A stretch of DNA of 64,000 nucleotides from Pontiellaceae bacterium B12219 (GTDB lineage: Bacteria; Verrucomicrobiota; Kiritimatiellia; Kiritimatiellales; Pontiellaceae). The notes beneath the pieces are model-generated. The model made no database searches and was not told the origin of the DNA. It was given only the letters and a program-made list of their open reading frames with translations. Location of the stretch: NCBI GenBank assembly GCA_029432795.1, contig JARNMJ010000008.1, positions 1-64,000 of the forward strand. Direction: 5' to 3'. Numbering within the stretch: position 1 is the stretch's first letter; each line of letters begins with the position of its first letter. Positions 1 through 30,316 of this stretch are shown in pieces. The position numbers were made by a program, and so were the translations under genes.

Positions 1-525
1 GGCCTCGCCCCCATCTGGCAGCGGAATTATTATGAGATGATTGTGCGTTCGGCGGAGGCGGCGGAGAAGATTGCCGGGTATATCCGGATGAATCCGTGGA
101 AATGCGTTACGCCGTTTGGGAATGGATTGCGGGGGATTGGAAATCCGGCGCTGTGGAATGGCGAAAAGCTAGGCGTGTTGTGCAGTCGCAATGCGCCGCA
201 CATTGGGCGTATTCCGGATGCGGATGTGTATTTTGGCGGTTGGCATTCGCCAAAGGAGAAGGAAATATTCGATTGGTTATTGGAGCAGAACAAACGGGTG
301 ATTGCCTGTCCGGCGTGGGGTATTGACGGGGCGGTTGGAGCCAAAACTATTCCGTCCCTTCAGGAAAACCGGTTGTTGATTTTAGAGATGAGAAACCGGG
401 ACGGGGATCTGGCGGCGGCGGAGCAACGGAACCGGTTTGTGATTGAGCATGCGAACAATGTCTTTGTGCCGCACACCACCCCCGGCGGCATGCTGGAAAG
501 GCTTCTGAAGGAATGTCGAAAATGA
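1..525 (+). CDS. Y1/RAYT-like transposase with DprA-like C-terminal part (5' truncated by window)
   Basis: The reading frame is open from base 1, so the start lies outside the window. The first visible residues (PIWQRNYYE, then a stretch ending RMNPWKC) match the end of the IS200-like Y1 transposase domain of REP-associated tyrosine transposases, which usually read WQRxYYxHxI...YIxxNPxxW. The catalytic HUH and Tyr region is not visible. The remaining ~130 residues look like the Rossmann-like fold of DprA/Smf proteins: GNPALW, LCSRNAP, a 'GGWHSPKEK' turn, 'VIACPAWGI' and 'RNRFVIEHANNVFVPHT'. Family knowledge: RAYTs mobilise or maintain REP palindromes, and DprA loads RecA on single-stranded DNA. 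The fusion is what I see; its function is inference. It is convergent with topB. Confidence 0.6.
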   Translation, partial: GLAPIWQRNYYEMIVRSAEAAEKIAGYIRMNPWKCVTPFGNGLRGIGNPALWNGEKLGVLCSRNAPHIGRIPDADVYFGGWHSPKEKEIFDWLLEQNKRVIACPAWGIDGAVGAKTIPSLQENRLLILEMRNRDGDLAAAEQRNRFVIEHANNVFVPHTTPGGMLERLLKECRK

Positions 526-590: not shown

Positions 591-2708
591 TTACTTTTTC
601 GTGGGTTTCTTCGCGGGGCGTCCTTCTTCTTTGGCGCTTTTCTGGCGGTCGGCGGAGGGGAGGGCAATATCCATGAGGTCGCCCTGGGTGCTGAGCAGCA
701 GGAGACGCAGTTCGTCTTCAATGTGAATGGCGTAGGGCAGGACGCGCATCTGCAGGAGGACCTGAACCTGATTGCGGGTCAGCTTGATGCCTTTGTATTC
801 CATCGGCAGGACAAATTTACAGCCCTCTTTCCAGCCGGAGCACCCGTAGGCGGTTTTTCCGCGGATGACTTTTTTTCCACAGGTTGGACAATTGCCGAGT
901 TCGTCGAGGTTCAGTTTGGTGGAGGTGCCGCTTTCAATCAGGCCGCGGGTGTAGTCGAAAATGCCGCCCATAAAGTCGTCGGCCTGCGCTTCACCGCGTT
1001 CGATCTGTTTGAGTTTCTCTTCCCATTCACCGGTCATTTCGGGGGACTTTAAAAGCGGGTCCTGAATGAGGGCGATCAGGCAACGGCCCATATCGGTGGC
1101 GCGTATCTGTTTCTTTTCGCGGCGGATATAATTTCGGCGCAGCAGCGTTTCTATGATGGCCGCGCGGGTGGCCGGGGTGCCGATGCCGCGTTCTTTGAGG
1201 GCTTCGCGCAGCGTGTCGTCGTCGACCCATTTTCCGGCGGCTTCCATGGCACCGAGCAGCGAGTTTTCGTTGAAAGCCTGCGGCGGTTTGGTTTTGCCTT
1301 CCCGCGTTGCGGGTTCGTGCGGGCCGTTTTCGCCTTTTTCAAAGGTTGGAAGGGTTTGCTCGTCGTCTTCTCCGGCGTCCGGATTCTTTTTCTTCTTTTT
1401 CTTTTTCGGGAACAGGACGGACCAGCCGGGCTCGACAATGACGGTGCCTTTGGCCTGGAATTTGACTTCGACCGATTCGCCGTTGACGGTGGTTATTTTT
1501 TTGAGGCAGACGGGATAAAACGCGGCGATAAACTGGGTGACGATGGCGTTGTAGACCATTTGTTCGTTCGGGCCGATAGAACCGGGGATGATTCCGGTGG
1601 GGATGATGGCATGGTGATCGGTGACTTTCTTATCGTCGACGATGCGTTTGGTGAACGGCAGTTTGGAAAGGTCCAGAGGTTGGATCTGTTCCGGGCGCAG
1701 TCTTTCCAGGGCCTGGAAAATTTTCGGGATGCGCGGTTTCATGTCGGCGCTGAGGTAGCGCGAGTCGGTACGCGGATAGGTGACGAGTTTGGATTCGTAG
1801 AGATTCTGGGTGGCGGCGAGGGTGTCGGCGGCGGAGAGTCCGTGGCTTTTGTTGATTTCGCGCTGCAGGGTGGTGAGGTCGAACAGCTGGGGGGGCTGTT
1901 CTTTTTTCTGTTTGCCGGAAACGCCGGTGATGGTGAAGGGGTTTCCGGTTATTTTATCGAGCAGCTCCTGGGCTCGTTCGAGTTTTTCGAAGCGGTCGCC
2001 GGTGTATTTAAATACGACGTCGCGGTATTTGGTGGTCAGCTCCCAGAAGGGCTTGGGGCGGAACTTCATGATTTCGTCATCGCGCTGAACAATCATGGCG
2101 AGAACGGGGGTTTGCACGCGGCCGATGCTCCAGAGTACGCGGTCGTCGCCGGACGCGAGGCGGCCGTGGCGAACGGTGAAAAAACGGGTGGCGTTCAGGC
2201 CGACAATCCAGTCGGATTCGGAACGGCATTTGGCGGCGGCGTAGAGCGGGTCGTAGTCGTGGCCGTCTTTCAAATCTTTGAACGCTTCCTGAATGGCATC
2301 TGTTGTCATGGAACTGAGCCAGAGGCGTTTGATCGGTTTGTCTTCGCATTCGCTGAGCGCGAGAATGTAGCGGAAAATGAGTTCGCCTTCGCGGCCGGCA
2401 TCGGTGGCGCAGACGATTTCATCGGCTTCCTGGCAGAGGCGTTTGATGGTTTCGAACTGTTCGGAGACGCCGGGGTTTTCAATGATCTTGAGTTTGAACT
2501 CCTGCGGAATAAAGGGGAGGGAGTCGAGCCGCCATTTGCGCAGCTCGGGATCGTATTCGCCGGGTTCGAGCAGAGTGACCAAATGGCCGAAGGCCCAGGT
2601 GATGGCACAGCCGCGGCCTTCAATATATCCGTTTTTCTTTTCAGTAATTTTGAGAACGCTTGCAATATCGCGGGCTACGGACGGTTTTTCTGTGATGACG
2701 ACTTTCAT
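591..2708 (-). CDS. topB: DNA topoisomerase III (type IA)
   Basis: Type IA topoisomerase of 705 residues. It cuts one strand through a 5'-phosphotyrosine and decatenates or relaxes negatively supercoiled DNA. Visible signs are the N-terminal TOPRIM domain with ITEKPSVARDIA and the metal-binding DAGREGELIFR near residue 103, the 'GRVQTPVLAMIV' segment, and the catalytic Tyr near 311 in LVTYPRTDSRY. A C-terminal zinc-ribbon-like segment (CPTCGKK...YGCSGWKEGC) and a Lys-rich tail ending PAKKPTKK suit DNA binding. A run of seven Lys near 435-441 starts a charged insert that is not part of the core fold. The start ATG at 2708 has no clear Shine-Dalgarno; instead a heptad repeat lies 12 bp upstream. 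The length is usual for TopB. Confidence 0.95.
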   Translation of the reverse strand: MKVVITEKPSVARDIASVLKITEKKNGYIEGRGCAITWAFGHLVTLLEPGEYDPELRKWRLDSLPFIPQEFKLKIIENPGVSEQFETIKRLCQEADEIVCATDAGREGELIFRYILALSECEDKPIKRLWLSSMTTDAIQEAFKDLKDGHDYDPLYAAAKCRSESDWIVGLNATRFFTVRHGRLASGDDRVLWSIGRVQTPVLAMIVQRDDEIMKFRPKPFWELTTKYRDVVFKYTGDRFEKLERAQELLDKITGNPFTITGVSGKQKKEQPPQLFDLTTLQREINKSHGLSAADTLAATQNLYESKLVTYPRTDSRYLSADMKPRIPKIFQALERLRPEQIQPLDLSKLPFTKRIVDDKKVTDHHAIIPTGIIPGSIGPNEQMVYNAIVTQFIAAFYPVCLKKITTVNGESVEVKFQAKGTVIVEPGWSVLFPKKKKKKKNPDAGEDDEQTLPTFEKGENGPHEPATREGKTKPPQAFNENSLLGAMEAAGKWVDDDTLREALKERGIGTPATRAAIIETLLRRNYIRREKKQIRATDMGRCLIALIQDPLLKSPEMTGEWEEKLKQIERGEAQADDFMGGIFDYTRGLIESGTSTKLNLDELGNCPTCGKKVIRGKTAYGCSGWKEGCKFVLPMEYKGIKLTRNQVQVLLQMRVLPYAIHIEDELRLLLLSTQGDLMDIALPSADRQKSAKEEGRPAKKPTKK

Positions 2709-2720
2709 AAATGGGTACTT

Positions 2721-2741
2721 CGTAATTCGGAATGCGTAATT
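2721..2741 (-). repeat. CGTAATN heptad array in the topB leader
   Basis: Three exact 7-bp units (CGTAATT, CGGAATG, CGTAATT on the + strand) end 12 bp upstream of the topB start. In the sense direction of topB they read AATTACGCATTCCGAATTACG. The same arrangement precedes glnS (38458-38478), and related arms precede lepB and ccoI. Confidence 0.7.
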
Positions 2742-2803
2742 GGACTTAAAGCGGAGATATTGTACGTTGATTGCTGTCTATTCAATCACTAATGGAGACC
2801 GGC

Positions 2804-4189
2804 ATGTTTAATCGATTTTTTCTGAGTGTTTTCCTGATGGGAGCTTTGTTCTCCGGGATGTTGGCCAAGGGCGAAGTTGTGGTGCTGGGAGAAACGCCGG
2901 TGGCTGAGTTTACGTTGCCCGACGGGGCTGTGCTGAAAAATGCGTTTGTCTGGCGGCGCAGCTCGGAGGGCCTGATGATTGTGCATGACGACGGGCAGGT
3001 TTTTCTCAATTTCTCGCTGCTTCCTGATGATTGGAAGGCGGCATATCTGGGTGATGTTCCGGTTGTGGAGGATGTGGCGCCTCAGCAGGTTTATGAGTTG
3101 TATGATCCCTATGCGTTGAAGCCGATTCTGGATACCGTTCCGAACCTGATTCCGCAGGGCAGCGACTATGTGCTGCGTAAGGATGCGGACCCGGAATCGT
3201 CGCAATATGCTTTGGCGCTGGGCGCGCTGCAGAGTCTGCTGAGTGGCGATCTTGATAATGCAAAGCGGCTGATTCTGATTGTGGAAGAGAAAGGCGTTGA
3301 AGTTCAGGGCATTGATCGGGATTCGCTTTTTGTGGAGTGTGGAACGTGCGGTGGTGAGGGACGCGTTGAGCTGGACTGCGTGGCGTGCAAAGGCACGGGG
3401 AGGTGCCCTAAGTGCGGAGGGGCCGGGCAGCGGGACAGCAGTATTGGAAAGGGCAGTGTGCATTGCACGACCTGTCGGGGAACCGGTGACTGTTCCGAGT
3501 GTGCCGGAGCGGGGAGTTCTGTGTCGGCGTGCAAGGTGTGCCGGGGCCGGGGAAAACTGCTGCAGAAACAATACTGCGAAGTAAAACGCGACTATTTTGT
3601 GTATCAAATTAACGCATTGGCGAATCCGGCTGAGGCTGGTTCGGTGCTGCTGTCGGATCGGGAGCGGGTTTTGAAGGTGCTGAACGTATTGCCGGGGATT
3701 GACCGCGATGCTGCGGCTTATTATTCATCGGATGCGTATGCCGGAGGAATGGACAGTAATATTCTTGTGGCCTGTATTATGGATGCACTGCTGCACAAAG
3801 ACCTTGATGATGCGAAGCGTTTTCTTTTAATTCTCGAAGAGCATTTCGGCGATGAGATCCTGGTGATTGATAATTATCTTCAACGCTGTGAAAGATGCGA
3901 TGCCACGGGATATGTTGAGCGCGACTGCAACGCCTGCGGCGGTTCCGGAAAATGCGTTCGGTGCGGCGGAGACGGGAAGCGGGATACCGACTTCAGAGAT
4001 CGGACGATTCCCTGCACGACGTGCCGTGGAACGGGGGTGTGTGTGAAGTGCGGAGGGGAGGGCACGCTCCGGGCCCGCTGCGCCGTCTGTGAAGGAATGG
4101 GGCGGACAATGGAAAAAGATCGGGCCAAGGTGCGCCTGCAGTTGATGGTTGAGGAGCTGAATCGATATTATCAATCGGTTGAGCAATGA
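2804..4189 (+). CDS. Secreted protein with two DnaJ-type CxxCxGxG zinc clusters
   Basis: The start is placed at 2804 because GGAG lies 6 bp upstream and the protein then opens with a signal peptide (MFNRFFLSVFLMGALFSGMLA). A short module follows with 'LPDGAVLKNAFV' and 'LMIVHDDG', also found in the gene at 53961. The rest is an internal duplication. Each half has a helical segment (SGDLDNAKRLILIVEE / HKDLDDAKRFLLILEE), then about six CxxC pairs with Gly-rich spacing (CGTCGGEGR...CRGRGK and CERCDATGY...CEGMGR). This cysteine pattern is that of the DnaJ zinc-finger region, but there is no J domain or HPD motif. It probably binds zinc in the periplasm or at the surface; the function is unknown. 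It is divergent from topB. Confidence 0.8.
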   Translation: MFNRFFLSVFLMGALFSGMLAKGEVVVLGETPVAEFTLPDGAVLKNAFVWRRSSEGLMIVHDDGQVFLNFSLLPDDWKAAYLGDVPVVEDVAPQQVYELYDPYALKPILDTVPNLIPQGSDYVLRKDADPESSQYALALGALQSLLSGDLDNAKRLILIVEEKGVEVQGIDRDSLFVECGTCGGEGRVELDCVACKGTGRCPKCGGAGQRDSSIGKGSVHCTTCRGTGDCSECAGAGSSVSACKVCRGRGKLLQKQYCEVKRDYFVYQINALANPAEAGSVLLSDRERVLKVLNVLPGIDRDAAAYYSSDAYAGGMDSNILVACIMDALLHKDLDDAKRFLLILEEHFGDEILVIDNYLQRCERCDATGYVERDCNACGGSGKCVRCGGDGKRDTDFRDRTIPCTTCRGTGVCVKCGGEGTLRARCAVCEGMGRTMEKDRAKVRLQLMVEELNRYYQSVEQ

Positions 4190-4924: not shown

Positions 4925-6661
4925 TCAAATGGTGATGGACTGGGTCAGTTCTTTCGTGGATGTGAATTCAACGGAGCGGGAGCCCAGCGAAAGCACAACA
5001 GTTTTTCCGGCTGCTTCCAGTTGAATGGATGCTTCCGGATGGCGCGCTTTCCAGGCATTGGAAAGGGCGAAGGCTTTTTCAAGGCCGTCGCCGCGCTGAA
5101 AATTCCAGACTTCGTCGGGCTGAGCCACGCGGGTTCCATCGTAGATGGACTCGTTTTCGAGGTTTTCCAGTGCCTGGATCAATTCGTCGTCCGATAGATT
5201 TTTTGTGGCTTCAATAACCACCGGATTCCGTTCCATTCCGGCTTTCAGGAAGGGGCCCCAATTGGTTGCGGCAAGGTCGCGGCTGGCATAAAAAGCGAGG
5301 TCGGCAATGGTGTGGGTTTCGCGGAGTTCGGTGAGATAGGCCCGGATTTCGTCGCGGGTGGCACCGGGTTTGATTGCAATCGGGCCCGGGCCGGTGAAGG
5401 TTTTGCCTTCAACGTCTGGAAGTTCCGGTTCGAGGTGCACGAAATCGACCAGTGCTTCAATAACCGACATCTTGCGCTGCATATCGCCGGTGCAGTCAAT
5501 TTTCCCTGCCAGTTCGCGCATGCTCACCTCATCAAAATGAGAGATGGGGTTGTTTTTAAGATAATCGGAAAGCTTGTTCAGCTGAATCCGGTTTTCGATG
5601 GGCTCGGTGTAGAAGTCATATTCGTCGATCTGGTCGAGCAGCTTATCGCGCGTGGCGTTGTCGGACACTTTGTAGGGCGATCCGTGTTCGTAGCTGTAGG
5701 CCCGTTCGATCGGCAGGTATTGCTCTTTGCCGTGGCGAAGGTATTTGATTTGAAAACATTTCTGGAACTCGGAGCGGTCGCGCAGGAAATTGGCAATCAT
5801 CTCAAAGGTGATCTCCGTTGTGGTGAACGCATCGAGTTGTTTGCGGAACAGCTCAAAGCTTTCGGGGTCGATGGTGGCTTCGGGATAGACCGTATGAATG
5901 AATCCGGTGTTGTTGGCGACGATGGTGACCTGCTCGTTCCGCAATGCGCGCTGTGCGCGAGCGGTGAGATCGGTTCCGTTGAACCACATATTTTTTGTTA
6001 CGAGCCGGCGGTTATTGGTGAGCACTCCGTCGTTCACATTAATGAAGTTCTGCGAATGCAGCGGTGTGGCGATCAGAAAGATGTCTTCCAGCGGGATGTC
6101 GCAGATAATAAACAGGGCCGCGGCATAGAGCGTGGAAAGGGAGACGCATTCTCCGGCGCCAACCCGGTAGTTGTCTTTATAGCGAAACGCATCCATGGCC
6201 TCGAGCGTTTCTGTTTTCCAGAAGGGGATGACATTGCTGGTATATTTGTCCAGGCCGAAGTGTTTGCGGATATCGAGCGAGAAGTAGTGCCGGTCGCCTT
6301 CGTAGCCGAACAGCGCATTGGACTGGCTGATCAGCTTTTCATCCATGAAGGGTTTAAACCGTTCAATTTCCGATTCTTTGGTTGTCAGGCCCCAGGTGTC
6401 CAGATCGAGATTGAACTCATAGTTGTCGATGATGAACTGCTTCAGCCGTTGAATCTTTTTATACGGTTTCATGGAATCGAGCTTGGCAAACCAAGGGTCG
6501 TTTTTCCATTCCCAGATCCGGGGCGACATAATGTTGGCCAGCACGAGGCTGTACAACAGCTCCGGAAAAACAAAAATTTCCATATCCGAAAGAGATATGG
6601 CTGATGAATATTTCTCAAGTTGGTCTGCGGGGATTTCTGGATTTTTCTTCATGGCGGGCAT
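4925..6661 (-). CDS. Transglutaminase-like (Cys-His) protein of unknown role
   Basis: About 578 residues, cytoplasmic by appearance, with no signal peptide or membrane helix. The middle carries 'GAGECVSLSTLYAAALFI' followed about 30 residues later by 'ATPLHSQNFINVNDG', resembling the Cys and His of transglutaminase-core folds, where Cys heads a helix and His plus Asp/Asn follow on strands. The N-terminal 150 residues are rich in aromatic and acidic residues with no motif I know; the C-terminal ~200 residues are helical and acidic. Start choice is uncertain: ATG at 6661 or 6652, neither with a good ribosome site. It is divergent from the autotransporter and upstream of two rhodaneses. The substrate is unknown; it could also be a non-catalytic scaffold. 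Confidence 0.6.
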   Translation of the reverse strand: MPAMKKNPEIPADQLEKYSSAISLSDMEIFVFPELLYSLVLANIMSPRIWEWKNDPWFAKLDSMKPYKKIQRLKQFIIDNYEFNLDLDTWGLTTKESEIERFKPFMDEKLISQSNALFGYEGDRHYFSLDIRKHFGLDKYTSNVIPFWKTETLEAMDAFRYKDNYRVGAGECVSLSTLYAAALFIICDIPLEDIFLIATPLHSQNFINVNDGVLTNNRRLVTKNMWFNGTDLTARAQRALRNEQVTIVANNTGFIHTVYPEATIDPESFELFRKQLDAFTTTEITFEMIANFLRDRSEFQKCFQIKYLRHGKEQYLPIERAYSYEHGSPYKVSDNATRDKLLDQIDEYDFYTEPIENRIQLNKLSDYLKNNPISHFDEVSMRELAGKIDCTGDMQRKMSVIEALVDFVHLEPELPDVEGKTFTGPGPIAIKPGATRDEIRAYLTELRETHTIADLAFYASRDLAATNWGPFLKAGMERNPVVIEATKNLSDDELIQALENLENESIYDGTRVAQPDEVWNFQRGDGLEKAFALSNAWKARHPEASIQLEAAGKTVVLSLGSRSVEFTSTKELTQSITI

Positions 6662-6842
6662 TCTAAGGGTCGTAATCCGGTTTAAAAGCAAACAATGGTA
6701 CGAAATCGATCCGAATGATCGGCTGCGGGTGGGGGTGGTGTGAGAGGGACGTCATAAATGAAATGACAGGAAAGGTTTTCAGAAATCCGGTACTTCTGGC
6801 AGAATTCATCGTTTAATTGAGAATTTTGAGTCCGGAGTGAAT

Positions 6843-9800
6843 ATGAAATTAATGAAGTGGTTGATTCTATCGATTGGTATTGTTTGTTCGGGAACGGTTT
6901 TGGGGGCCTTCCCGGTGGTGGATGACGGGGATGCAGAGACGATTAGCGGAACCAGAGATATCAGTGGGACGGATGTTTATGTGGGCATCAGCACGAGCGG
7001 GAACGGATTAATACAGAGTGCCAATGCTGGTCTGATCGCAAATAACGGTTACATCGGCTCTTCAGCCTCAACGTCGAATAACTGGATGCGTTTGGATCAG
7101 GGTGCTGCGACCGTTTTTAATAATTTTCTCATTGCCGGAGCTGCCGGAGGTTCCAGCAATGCAGTGTATATCGGTGCTAATTCATCCGTGGGTTCGGCGA
7201 ACGGCAGTTTGGGGCATGGAAGCGGAGCTGACAATAATTTCGTTTCTGTGAGCGGAAGCGATGCGCGCTGGGATGTGCAATACGATCTGTATGCCGGGCA
7301 GGACGGATCCGGAAACCGTTTTGAAATTAAAAATGGCGGAGCGGCTTCTGCGGCTCAGGTTTTGATCGGGGTTTCATCCACGGCCAATAACAATTCGGTC
7401 GATCTTTCCGGCGGGACTCTTGAAGCCGGGGCCATTGCTGTCGGAAACGACGGATCTTCAAATACCATGGATGTTGCCAGCGGATCTACCGTCAGCGCGG
7501 TTGACGCCTGGGTCGGCTTTGCTGATACGGCCAATGGAAACGTGTTGACCGTCAGTGATTCAGAATTGGAGCTGTCCGGAACGCTCACGGTGGGGTCCAG
7601 CCTGAACTCCGGTAATCAGGTGAATGCTGATTCCGGCGCAGAAGTTTCGTTGAATGAATTGCTTATTCTGGGCTCAGGAAATGCGTTCAATCTGAATTCG
7701 GGAGCTCAATTGACTGTGGCCTCTGATCTTGATGCTTCGATGACCGGTTTTAATTTCAATGACGGAAGCTCGCTCTATGTTGAGGGCGATCTGACCGGGC
7801 TGTCTGAATTGGAAGGTGGAAAAACGCTGGGTGTTTACGGAACCTGGAATGAGGCAGGGAGTACACTTTCTGTCGGGAATTCAAGTTCAGGAAATGAGTT
7901 GCTGATTGCGCAGGGTGGTCAGGTGACGGCGCTCGATTTCAATCTGGGAACGGGCAGTAATTCAACGGATAATACGGTGAATGTTTCCGGATCGGGCTCG
8001 CTGTTGACGGTTCAGGATCGGCTGACGATTGGTTCCCTGCTTTCTTCAAACCAATCGATAACGGTTGAAAGCGGCGGAAAAATGGTGGTGGGCGGAGATC
8101 TTCAGATTTATGCGGGAAGTTCGCTGGACCTGGGGTCGGAGGGCTGGCTGACCGTGAGCAATGATTTTGATGCTTCGGTTGCCGGCTTCGATTTCCAGTC
8201 GGGAGCCAGCCTCGAAGCGATGGGCGAATTGACGGGGATGTCCGGCTTGGTGGAGAGCAACCGCTCCGTTTATCTGACCGGGCCTTCAGCGGTTTGGGAT
8301 GTCAGTTCTGGAGCATTTGAAGTTACCGACAGTTTGGTGGCGCTTACCAACGGGGCGCAGTTGGTGAGTTCTTCGAGCGAACTGGTGTCCGGTACCCGGG
8401 TTGAAGTTGACAGTGCGATGTGGAATAACAGCGGGACGCTGGTGGTTGGCAGTTCGGATGGCAACCTGGTGGTGGCCACAAACGGGGGAATGGTCGTTTC
8501 GGATAATACCCGATTGGGCATCGGCAATAACAACCGGATTATTGTCTCCGGCTCGGGAACGATCTGGAGCACTGTAAATGATTTTGAGATCGGAGCCGGC
8601 GGCTCCGGAAATGTACTGCAGATTGAAGACGGGGGCGCGCTCGGTGTTGGCGGGCATCTCTCGCTTAACGATGATTCGGTGCTGGATTTCAAGACCGGAG
8701 GATCGGCGTCGGCGGCTTCCTATTATCAGGATGCCGATGCCGTGTTTCAGTTTGATTCGGTGACCAATGTTGCCGTGGATCCGGGAGCCGCATTGCTGAG
8801 TGTCAGCGGTACGGCGGATGTGGAGGATGGAGCGAACTTTGTTTACACCGGGTCGATCGGAGCGGTGGATGTCGGGGTCACGAACAGTCGTCAGTTGATT
8901 GCTTCCGGTACGCTGAATGTTGATACAAACACTCTTAACGGAGCGTTGACGGGAGGGCTGTTGTCGGTTGGGTTCCTTTCGCAAAACGATGCCCTTTATT
9001 TTCAGGTCTACCGCCAGATGCTGGCGGAAAGTGCCGGCTTCGGTTCCAATTCCCAGATGTATGCTGTCAGCGAGGAAATTGATGCTTTGGCGAACGGCGG
9101 AAATAGCGCGGCGGTTAATCAGCTTCGCATTTTGGATTCGATGAGCGGAGCGCAGCAGAATGCGCAATTAACCCAGCTTTATGATCAGGGGGCGCCGACA
9201 TTCATGCATATGGCCGGCCTGTTTGATGGTATGCGGCAGGTGCAGAATCGCGGGGTTATGCCGGACAAATTCTGGCCGATCGGTGCTTTCGGGCCGCATT
9301 TGTATGGTAGTCAGGTACAGGGCTGGATTAAGGGATACGGCAGTTGGGCAACGCAGGATGGCAGTGCTGGTTTTTCCGGATACGATCAGTCGGTGTATGG
9401 CGTCATGATCGGGTTTGATAAAGCCTATGGCGATTATCTGTTTGGCGGCGCAGGGGGCTATGCATCGTCCGATATCAGTCAGGATGATGGCGACAGCAGT
9501 AAATCAGGAACCGGTTTCGGGATGCTCTACAGTTCCTGGGGAACATCGGACTGGTTTGCAAATGCAAGTCTGGCCTATGGATTGGGGTCGGTTAAAAATA
9601 ATTCCGGAACGGCGTTTGACAGCTCTGCAGAATTTGATTCCAGCCAGTTCGGCTATTATCTGGGCGGCGGAAAAGAAATGGTCTTTAAGGAGGATCGATT
9701 GTTTGTGACCCCTTCAGCCGGTTTTCTGGGCGGATGGTATATGCAGGACGGTTATACGGAACGTTCCACTACGGCCGTTGCAAAAAAAGTCGATGCGTAC

Positions 9801-24507: not shown

Positions 24508-24522
24508 TTCCATGCATTGGAA
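24508..24522. repeat. TTCCA-N5-TGGAA palindrome (core TGCAT)
   Basis: Exact copy, eight bases after the argG stop. First of three within 70 bp. Confidence 0.75.
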
Positions 24523-30267: not shown

Positions 30268-30316
30268 CGCTTTTCAGTCCGATTTCCGGGACGTTTGCCC
30301 CATCGCCTGAAAAGCG
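30268..30316 (+). other. Structured leader element upstream of the ClC channel
   Basis: A 49-base imperfect palindrome: CGCTTTTCAG pairs with CTGAAAAGCG (10 bp). Inside, CGAT pairs with ATCG, and GGG with CCC around ACGTTTG. No T-run follows. It may be a cis-acting RNA or a REP-like element. Confidence 0.5.

Follow-up and report, generated by a model that had tools for sequence, protein, structure and literature searches.

The first 525 bases of the analysed stretch (the window, 64,000 nucleotides starting at base 1 of contig C262) encode part of a protein in which a Y1/RAYT-like transposase domain is joined to a DprA-like domain. The fusion is supported by sequence, by structure prediction and by conservation across many species. 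With 53 distinct fused ORFs and a fold obtained by prediction, the fusion that a preliminary description had proposed for this interval proved to be real. We read the gene as a RAYT variant taken up time and again by defence operons as a translationally coupled accessory, a reading that we consider evenly balanced between right and wrong. No recognised defence operon contains the window copy itself, at least within its known surroundings. The following features were assigned to the window gene:

1..525, + strand: 3' part of a RAYT-DprA fusion gene (174 codons plus stop), from comparison with paralogues
1..105, + strand: C-terminal end of the Y1 (HUH) domain with the class-2 motif Y---NP, from an NF047646 match at residues 4-34
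79..81 and 91..96, + strand: Tyr codon and Asn-Pro codons, respectively, of the Y---NP motif of the window copy
118..522, + strand: DprA-like Rossmann domain (GN..L, SR, GGxHSPxE, RNR, PGGM), from alignment, tail profile and the predicted fold of a relative
1..11, + strand: right half of a REP-like palindrome within the coding sequence, the left half of which, GTAGGGGCGAGGCC, is the end of contig C226

The open frame is real, but the gene is truncated on its 5' side by the contig end, in a genome of 4.75 Mb divided into 273 contigs. The first ~35 residues of the fragment (IWQRNYYE...YIRMNP) are the end of the Y1 domain and the remainder is the DprA-like tail. The whole layout could be retrieved from two paralogues in the same genome, located in contigs C66 (314 aa, 78% identity to the window protein over the common part) and C267 (80% identity, 354 aa counted from the first ATG, with the true start probably downstream). 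Both consist of a Y1/RAYT domain of ~165 residues followed by a second domain of ~140 residues; the window gene itself supplies only the 3' part. The N-terminal half of a RAYT-DprA gene, including the HUH motif, was found on the reverse strand at the start of contig C226. This half ends in ...GTACGTAGGGGCGAGGCCG, while the window opens with GGCCTCGCCCC..., and the homologue L043 reads without interruption across the stretch that matches the C226/C262 break. Judging from L043 and the palindrome, the start of C226 is probably the missing 5' half of the window gene. Put together, the two contig ends form a palindrome, the probable site of the assembly break. There is no hsd gene alongside the window copy; its downstream neighbour is a topoisomerase and, if C226 is the other half, its upstream neighbours are genes of the DUF1501/DUF1553 type (all named by eye). 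A NucS_C identity for the window fragment was rejected, the E value of 0.07 being that of a chance match. No match was obtained in the window with Rfam at the gathering threshold, nor with the fragment in a PDB sequence search.

The Y1 domain of the C66 copy was matched by the REP_Tyr_transpos model NF047646 (E=2.9e-16, 59.7 bits) and that of the C267 copy scored 46.4 bits, against a curated cut-off of 80. With PF01797 the C66 copy reached 23.3 bits (E=7.6e-5; cut-off 23) and the C267 copy 20.9 bits. The catalytic tyrosine is present in its class-2 context, Y---NP, in 53/53 distinct fused ORFs, and the HUH motif in 46/53; the window copy directly shows only the tyrosine side. Among the seven ORFs lacking HUH, three are cut at a contig end (L039, L102 and L104), one starts near a contig end (L105), and in L058, L081 and L095 the motif region looks deleted. 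Structure was predicted with AlphaFold2 for the relative L072 (44 sequences, mean pLDDT 83, pTM 0.70), and the first half of this model matched the RAYT structure 4er8 (Foldseek E=1.8e-6; Z 10.8) and that of IS608, 2a6m (Z 12.7). To judge by its conserved motifs, the Y1/RAYT domain is apparently catalytic.

The tail is left unnamed by Pfam models, as no PF02481 match was found at E<=10 in the three proteins of the source genome. A profile built from nine tails and one stand-alone relative matched in the PDB the Streptococcus pneumoniae DprA 3uqz (E=2.4e-4), with the GN..LL, SR, SG and RNR motifs in register; the next matches were unrelated designed TIM barrels (E=1.3e-3). In the L072 model, residues ~170-319 had ShosA (8zva) as best fold match (Z 15.3, rmsd 2.6, 142 residues aligned), and were also similar to SpDprA 3uqz (Z 12.4, 141 residues) and HpDprA 4ljl (Z 12.3, 140 residues). 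The profile match and the predicted fold thus show that the label DprA-like, already used in the preliminary description, is right; since the PF02481 cut-off is not reached, the tail is not called DprA. Neither of the two outcomes named in that description as contradicting the proposal, a lack of Y1 catalytic residues in the family and a tail unrelated to DprA, was encountered; the fusion may, as suggested there, couple excision with strand handling. The Rossmann fold and the motifs are shared with DprA (3uqz, 4ljl, 3maj); unlike DprA, the tail has only ~140 residues, lacks the SAM and DML1 domains, falls below Pfam detection, has Cys in place of the Gly of GSR in most members, and is joined to a nuclease domain. 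The arginines of SR and RNR are kept in most of alignment A1. The HpDprA residues R52, K137 and R143 are reported, in the context of ssDNA binding, in passages of PMC4489622.

Beside one of the fusions lies a stand-alone DprA-like gene (L068:5134-5664), whose product matched PF02481 at E=1.1e-6 with 28.4 bits (cut-off 29.6), the tail HMM at 2.7e-25 and the PADLOC model PsyrA at 5.6e-10; a phmmer search of the PDB with this protein gave nothing useful. In this locus (L068:4089-5688) the stand-alone gene overlaps the start of the RAYT-DprA fusion, and the pair adjoins RhuM; it is a possible donor of the fusion tail. When ten proteins were run against PADLOC, DprA-type matches were obtained only in the distant members and the stand-alone relative, and the window protein had no match.

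The ShosA fold match and the PsyrA matches of the distant members and the stand-alone relative could alternatively mean that the DprA-like domain works as in ShosTA/PsyrTA, monitoring the state of the DNA and restraining a nuclease, either the Y1 domain or a neighbouring restriction enzyme. DprA homologues act as antitoxins in shosTA, syrTA and rqlHI, according to passages of PMC9122126. We regard such a sensor or antitoxin role as improbable, given that the Y1 catalytic residues are retained, that the window protein lacks a PADLOC match, and that no partner toxin was noticed among the neighbours of the fused genes, which were read by eye. In ShosTA and PsyrTA a free-standing DprA-like protein partners a toxin, whereas the present one is joined to an HUH nuclease domain. 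Reports of DprA relatives acting in defence (ShosTA, PsyrTA) are extended by this coupling of a DprA fold to a nuclease.

The fused family comprises 68 fused ORFs, 53 of them distinct, mostly from PVC-group bacteria. The set was gathered from 78 related loci of named genomes and from loci of relatives of the source genome; 15 duplicate ORFs, 47 Y1-only ORFs and 8 tail-only ORFs were left out before the 53 were counted. The fused loci come from the PVC group, Kiritimatiellae/Kiritimatiellales, Pontiella(ceae), Lentisphaerae and Verrucomicrobia, with one Deltaproteobacteria record (L083); the source genome and G028 belong to the same genus group. A tail profile match at E<=1e-6 was found in 86/387 genomes of the phylum, stand-alone and distant DprA-like matches included. 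Over 195 pairs, which are not independent and were limited to a tail dS below 1.3, median dN/dS was low in both halves (tail 0.23, Y1 part 0.29); in the closest pair, L038/L046, the Y1 part has a dN/dS of 0.62. The low values fit a RAYT-DprA gene that is kept functional.

Palindromes are encoded within the gene itself. Peptides that are translated palindromes (such as RRGDTHVAP or GATCVSPV; in DNA, for example, GTAGGGGCGACACGCATGTCGCCC) occur in the variable Y1 loops and, in some cases, in loops of the tail. Hairpins of the GGGC..GCCC type with a stem of at least 7 bp occur inside 45/53 fused ORFs, compared with 3.6 expected from codon shuffles, and in 6/100 flank pieces, each of 300 bases or about one third of the ORF length. 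Their stem sequence varies among copies while the pairing is preserved. A stricter GTAG-headed form was found at 17 places in 8/29 genomes, 9 of them inside copies of the fusion family and one in the source genome; it is so rare that it does not constitute a dispersed REP family, and it was rejected as a genome-wide REP. The preliminary description had proposed a search for REP-like hairpins flanking the gene and across the genome; in the flanks they are confined to those 6/100 pieces, the GTAG-headed form is not dispersed in the 29 genomes, and the family hairpins lie inside its own coding sequence.

This arrangement recalls TnpA-REP subclass 2.4, for which REP insertions inside the transposase gene have been reported (Quentin et al. 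2018, PMC6006769), and the HUH and Y---NP core is also shared. The fusion differs from that subclass in its C-terminal DprA-like domain and its recurrent location in type I restriction-modification (RM) and other defence loci; neither 'DprA' nor 'restriction' occurs in the main text of PMC6006769. According to the same study, some TnpA-REP subclasses have no flanking REPs. As these are not general, their absence bars the name 'REPtron' for our family, not the name RAYT. The family exemplifies a RAYT whose hairpins are housed within the gene.

The preliminary description had also suggested the fusion as a source of the palindromes of the window, which was not borne out. The hairpin cited there as an example, at 30268-30316, occurs only once in the sequence searched and was rejected as a REP. 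TTCCA-N-TGGAA occurs 26 times in the window, compared with 0.6 in 20 base shuffles. The longer TTTCCA-N-TGGAAA, mostly with a spacer of 5 (for example at 24508, 24530 and 24562 of the window), occurs 425 times in the source genome and 0 to 628 times per genome in 29 family genomes (control pattern, 0-3). It was rejected as a cognate REP because its counts do not track the fusion gene: G013 has 9 protein matches and 28 such palindromes, while G001 has 574 palindromes and only distant RAYT matches. Nor was it concentrated at RAYT genes in 20 stretches, a weak comparison since 11/20 lacked an ORF with the expected HUH pattern.

The genomic context links the family to defence operons. Hsd homology was detected by tblastn (E<=1e-3) within 1.5 kb of 16/53 fused loci, compared with 4/74 pieces located 4.5-6 kb away and 0/101 reversed flank pieces. 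The queries were drawn from these same loci, so the 16 include self-hits, and the independent test is that with PF01420. In 29 genomes, HsdS was found by this model within 1.5 kb of 11/36 fusion copies (merged by hand, fragments included, with same-genus copies non-independent), where 0.22 were expected by footprint. In the same genomes it was near 0/145 other Y1 genes, these controls being the Y1 genes among the matches listed minus those overlapping the fusion family (Fisher p=4.8e-9). The hsd genes are apparently intact or cut by a contig end in 14/16 of the tblastn-linked loci; only remnants are left in L050 and L071.

The fusion, in 14/53 members, the window copy not among them, is located between or beside hsd genes, in the orders (X = fusion) HsdR-X-HsdS-HsdM, HsdM-X-HsdS, HsdS-X-HsdM, HsdS-X-HsdR and HsdM-Schlafen-X-HsdS. 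It is co-directional with the hsd genes in 13/14 of these type I cases, often with an overlap of a few bases; the exception, L051, is on the opposite strand. R-linked ORFs of Campylobacter are accessory genes within type I RM operons, and the fusion resembles such genes in being an extra gene among hsd genes that differs between operons. Other accessory genes seen in the type I operons analysed here are RhuM, Bro-N and Schlafen AlbA_2. A RAYT or DprA-like accessory in type I RM operons was not found in our literature searches. A protein of ~195 aa was also seen repeatedly beside the fusion in type I operons (L052:792-1382, L054:7034-7612 and L098); the L052 protein had no match in Pfam or PADLOC.

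Other defence genes adjoin further copies: HNH, LmuB and a DpdF/GajB-like helicase in the Lamassu-like locus L043, a C5 methylase in L049, PDC-M26A with DUF2357-PDDEXK_7 in L057, Cmr1 upstream and Card1 downstream in L062, and RhuM in L068 and, within an RM locus, in L044. The Hsd matches and these defence neighbours were tested, and most remaining neighbours were named by eye from their ORFs. No recognised defence neighbour was present at 32/53 loci, the window copy included, or at 29 when three short RM remnants read by eye (L061, L076 and L081, outside the 16 Hsd-linked loci) are counted.

On a quick protein tree, made rough by the long branches of L061 and L062, the RM label, carried by 14 rows, requires 10 changes, of which well-supported branches force at least 8; it is only slightly more clustered than when shuffled (24/500 shuffles as low). 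With 10 changes on the tree, gain and loss of the association must have been repeated. Apparently intact fusion copies adjoin the decayed RM genes of L050 and L071, so the gene can outlast the restriction system.

The association extends to RAYTs of other kinds. Type I genes adjoin 8/40 loci with a Y1-only ORF. Four of these are set apart, L040 and L064 for their degenerate tail, L115 as a split copy and L137 as one truncated at the end of its contig; the other four hold unfused RAYTs from other phyla, namely L139 (a cyanobacterium with the order HsdM-RAYT-HsdS), L130 and L144 (two Bacteroidales-type records) and L131 (a Nitrospirae record, weak and fragmentary). Since unfused RAYTs also lie beside hsd genes, the RM link may predate the DprA domain or not depend on it. 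The loci L040, L060, L064, L065, L066, L069 and L070 have another type of RAYT (KKSMSQKLRMDGRDY...), the DprA-like tail of which is degenerate; L040 and L064 are in type I RM loci and L060 is beside a PDC-M26A match. For the degenerate-tail type 2/8 copies were near HsdS, and either type lay within 5 kb of 13/62 HsdS loci.

Restriction loci might simply be hotspots of gene gain that collect any mobile gene. RM loci are variable, and about two thirds of the copies are elsewhere, which would suit mere hitch-hiking. Other Y1 genes do not gather at HsdS (the 0/145 among the matches listed), and the fusion is often inside the operon, overlapping its neighbours, rather than merely beside it; we therefore give hitch-hiking very little credence.

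Evidence on how copies arrive comes from operons lacking the gene. In four relatives of the C66 HsdR (L205, L206, L210 and L226; ~50-60% identical) hsdR joins hsdS directly, with no fusion between them. In G000 and G020 the fusion ORF begins directly after the hsdR stop; in G000 its stop codon and the start of hsdS overlap, and in G020 ~200 bases lie between the fusion and hsdS. The hsdR|hsdS junction is compatible with a clean insertion, the empty relatives being distant ones. Similarity between copies mostly fades close to the start and stop codons, and no common end motif was seen among the copies by eye. Inverted repeats of at least 11 nt flank 1/48 copies with enough flanking sequence (L074), and direct repeats of the same minimum length 2/48, compared with 1/192 and 4/192 mismatched flank pairs, respectively. 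Terminal repeats or a fixed target site were rejected on these grounds, as similarity mostly ends near the limits of the gene and flank repeats are about as frequent as in mismatched flanks, except for L074. In that locus (flanks of 5983-7050) the gene is bordered by a 24-base inverted REP-like repeat, and in L047 (flanks of 2353-3282) the fusion has the hsdS start on either side, as though insertion had duplicated it. Carriage by plasmids or phages was rejected, since the 3 plasmid records and 1 phage record that matched did so in the Y1 part only; one viral contig matches as far as query residue 199.

These data also bear on the possibility of a selfish gene, for which defence operons are safe, transcribed and harmless landing places, and whose DprA domain serves its own single-strand transposition. 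Such a gene would be expected to carry REP-like hairpins within itself, to survive beside decayed RM genes and to be found, as many fusion copies are, at non-defence locations. The suitability of the hsdR|hsdS junction for insertion, the repeated hsdS start of L047 and the in-frame presence of another RAYT group within unrelated housekeeping proteins point the same way. It is less easily reconciled with the absence of HsdS near other Y1 genes of the same genomes (0/145 among the matches listed), the recurrence in several unrelated defence types, the close coupling and co-direction with operon genes, the tail dN/dS of 0.23 and the scarcity of flanking repeats. We hold this explanation to be possible but rather doubtful; sequence alone cannot tell a gene that helps defence from one that merely lodges there.

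A further-reaching reading, which we hold to be possible but less likely than not, is that RAYT-DprA represents an unrecognised, defence-associated class of HUH enzymes. It would be a domesticated hairpin-cutting transposase with a ShosA/DprA-like, ssDNA-capturing domain, repeatedly recruited to serve type I restriction systems, and also Lamassu-like, type III CRISPR-Cas and PDC-M26A-like loci, as an accessory that processes single strands or hairpins exposed by restriction translocases or by phage replication. In the reading that we prefer, the evenly balanced one given at the outset, the gene encodes a RAYT (TnpA-REP, a Y1/HUH single-strand DNA endonuclease) near the subclass 2.4 described by Quentin et al. 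Its C-terminus has turned into a DprA-like, probably ssDNA-binding Rossmann domain, and its REP-like hairpins are kept in variable loops within the coding region instead of as a dispersed REP family. We infer that this compact, gene-only unit moves between loci and that it was recruited repeatedly, into type I RM operons and less often into other defence loci, perhaps to their benefit. The DprA-like domain would most likely capture ssDNA, in the manner of DprA or perhaps of ShosA/PsyrA-like defence proteins, and offer hairpins to the HUH/Tyr site, where they would be cut or rejoined. RAYTs are common among bacteria, and what they do is still under debate. A DprA-fused lineage located in restriction operons offers a concrete functional hint, namely the handling of ssDNA in antiviral defence, and suggests that the fused HUH/DprA enzyme is an unrecognised accessory of bacterial defence.

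A different RAYT group was encountered inside host proteins. In the HsdR of two genomes there is an in-frame Y1 domain from this group, and one of them keeps nearly all of HsdR on both sides. A search with the HsdR-borne domain returned 30 loci, in 18 of which it lies within an ORF of more than 500 aa. Hosts confirmed with Pfam include PriA, the exonuclease VII large subunit, CarB, ValRS, LeuRS, HsdR, a diphosphomevalonate-decarboxylase-like protein and the two proteins of the source genome described below. Besides L182 of the source genome, the loci are L245, L216, L218, L228, L230, L234, L236, L242, L243, L251 and L252 (hosts of L228 and L245 named by eye). Three cases have HsdR as host, two of them at different positions of one HsdR type. 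Intragenic REPs are already known (PMC3733652); whole RAYT domains within host proteins were found neither in our literature searches nor in the passages of that paper.

Among the NF047646 matches listed (a list copied by hand), 34/150 are in ORFs of at least 530 aa. In the source genome, contig C240 encodes a B12/radical-SAM protein with an internal RAYT domain (L182:1559-3868), for which G017 has the same host by eye, and contig C33 encodes a CobQ-like protein with a C-terminal RAYT domain (L185), matched by NF047646 at E=1.9e-24 and by PF01797 below the cut-off.
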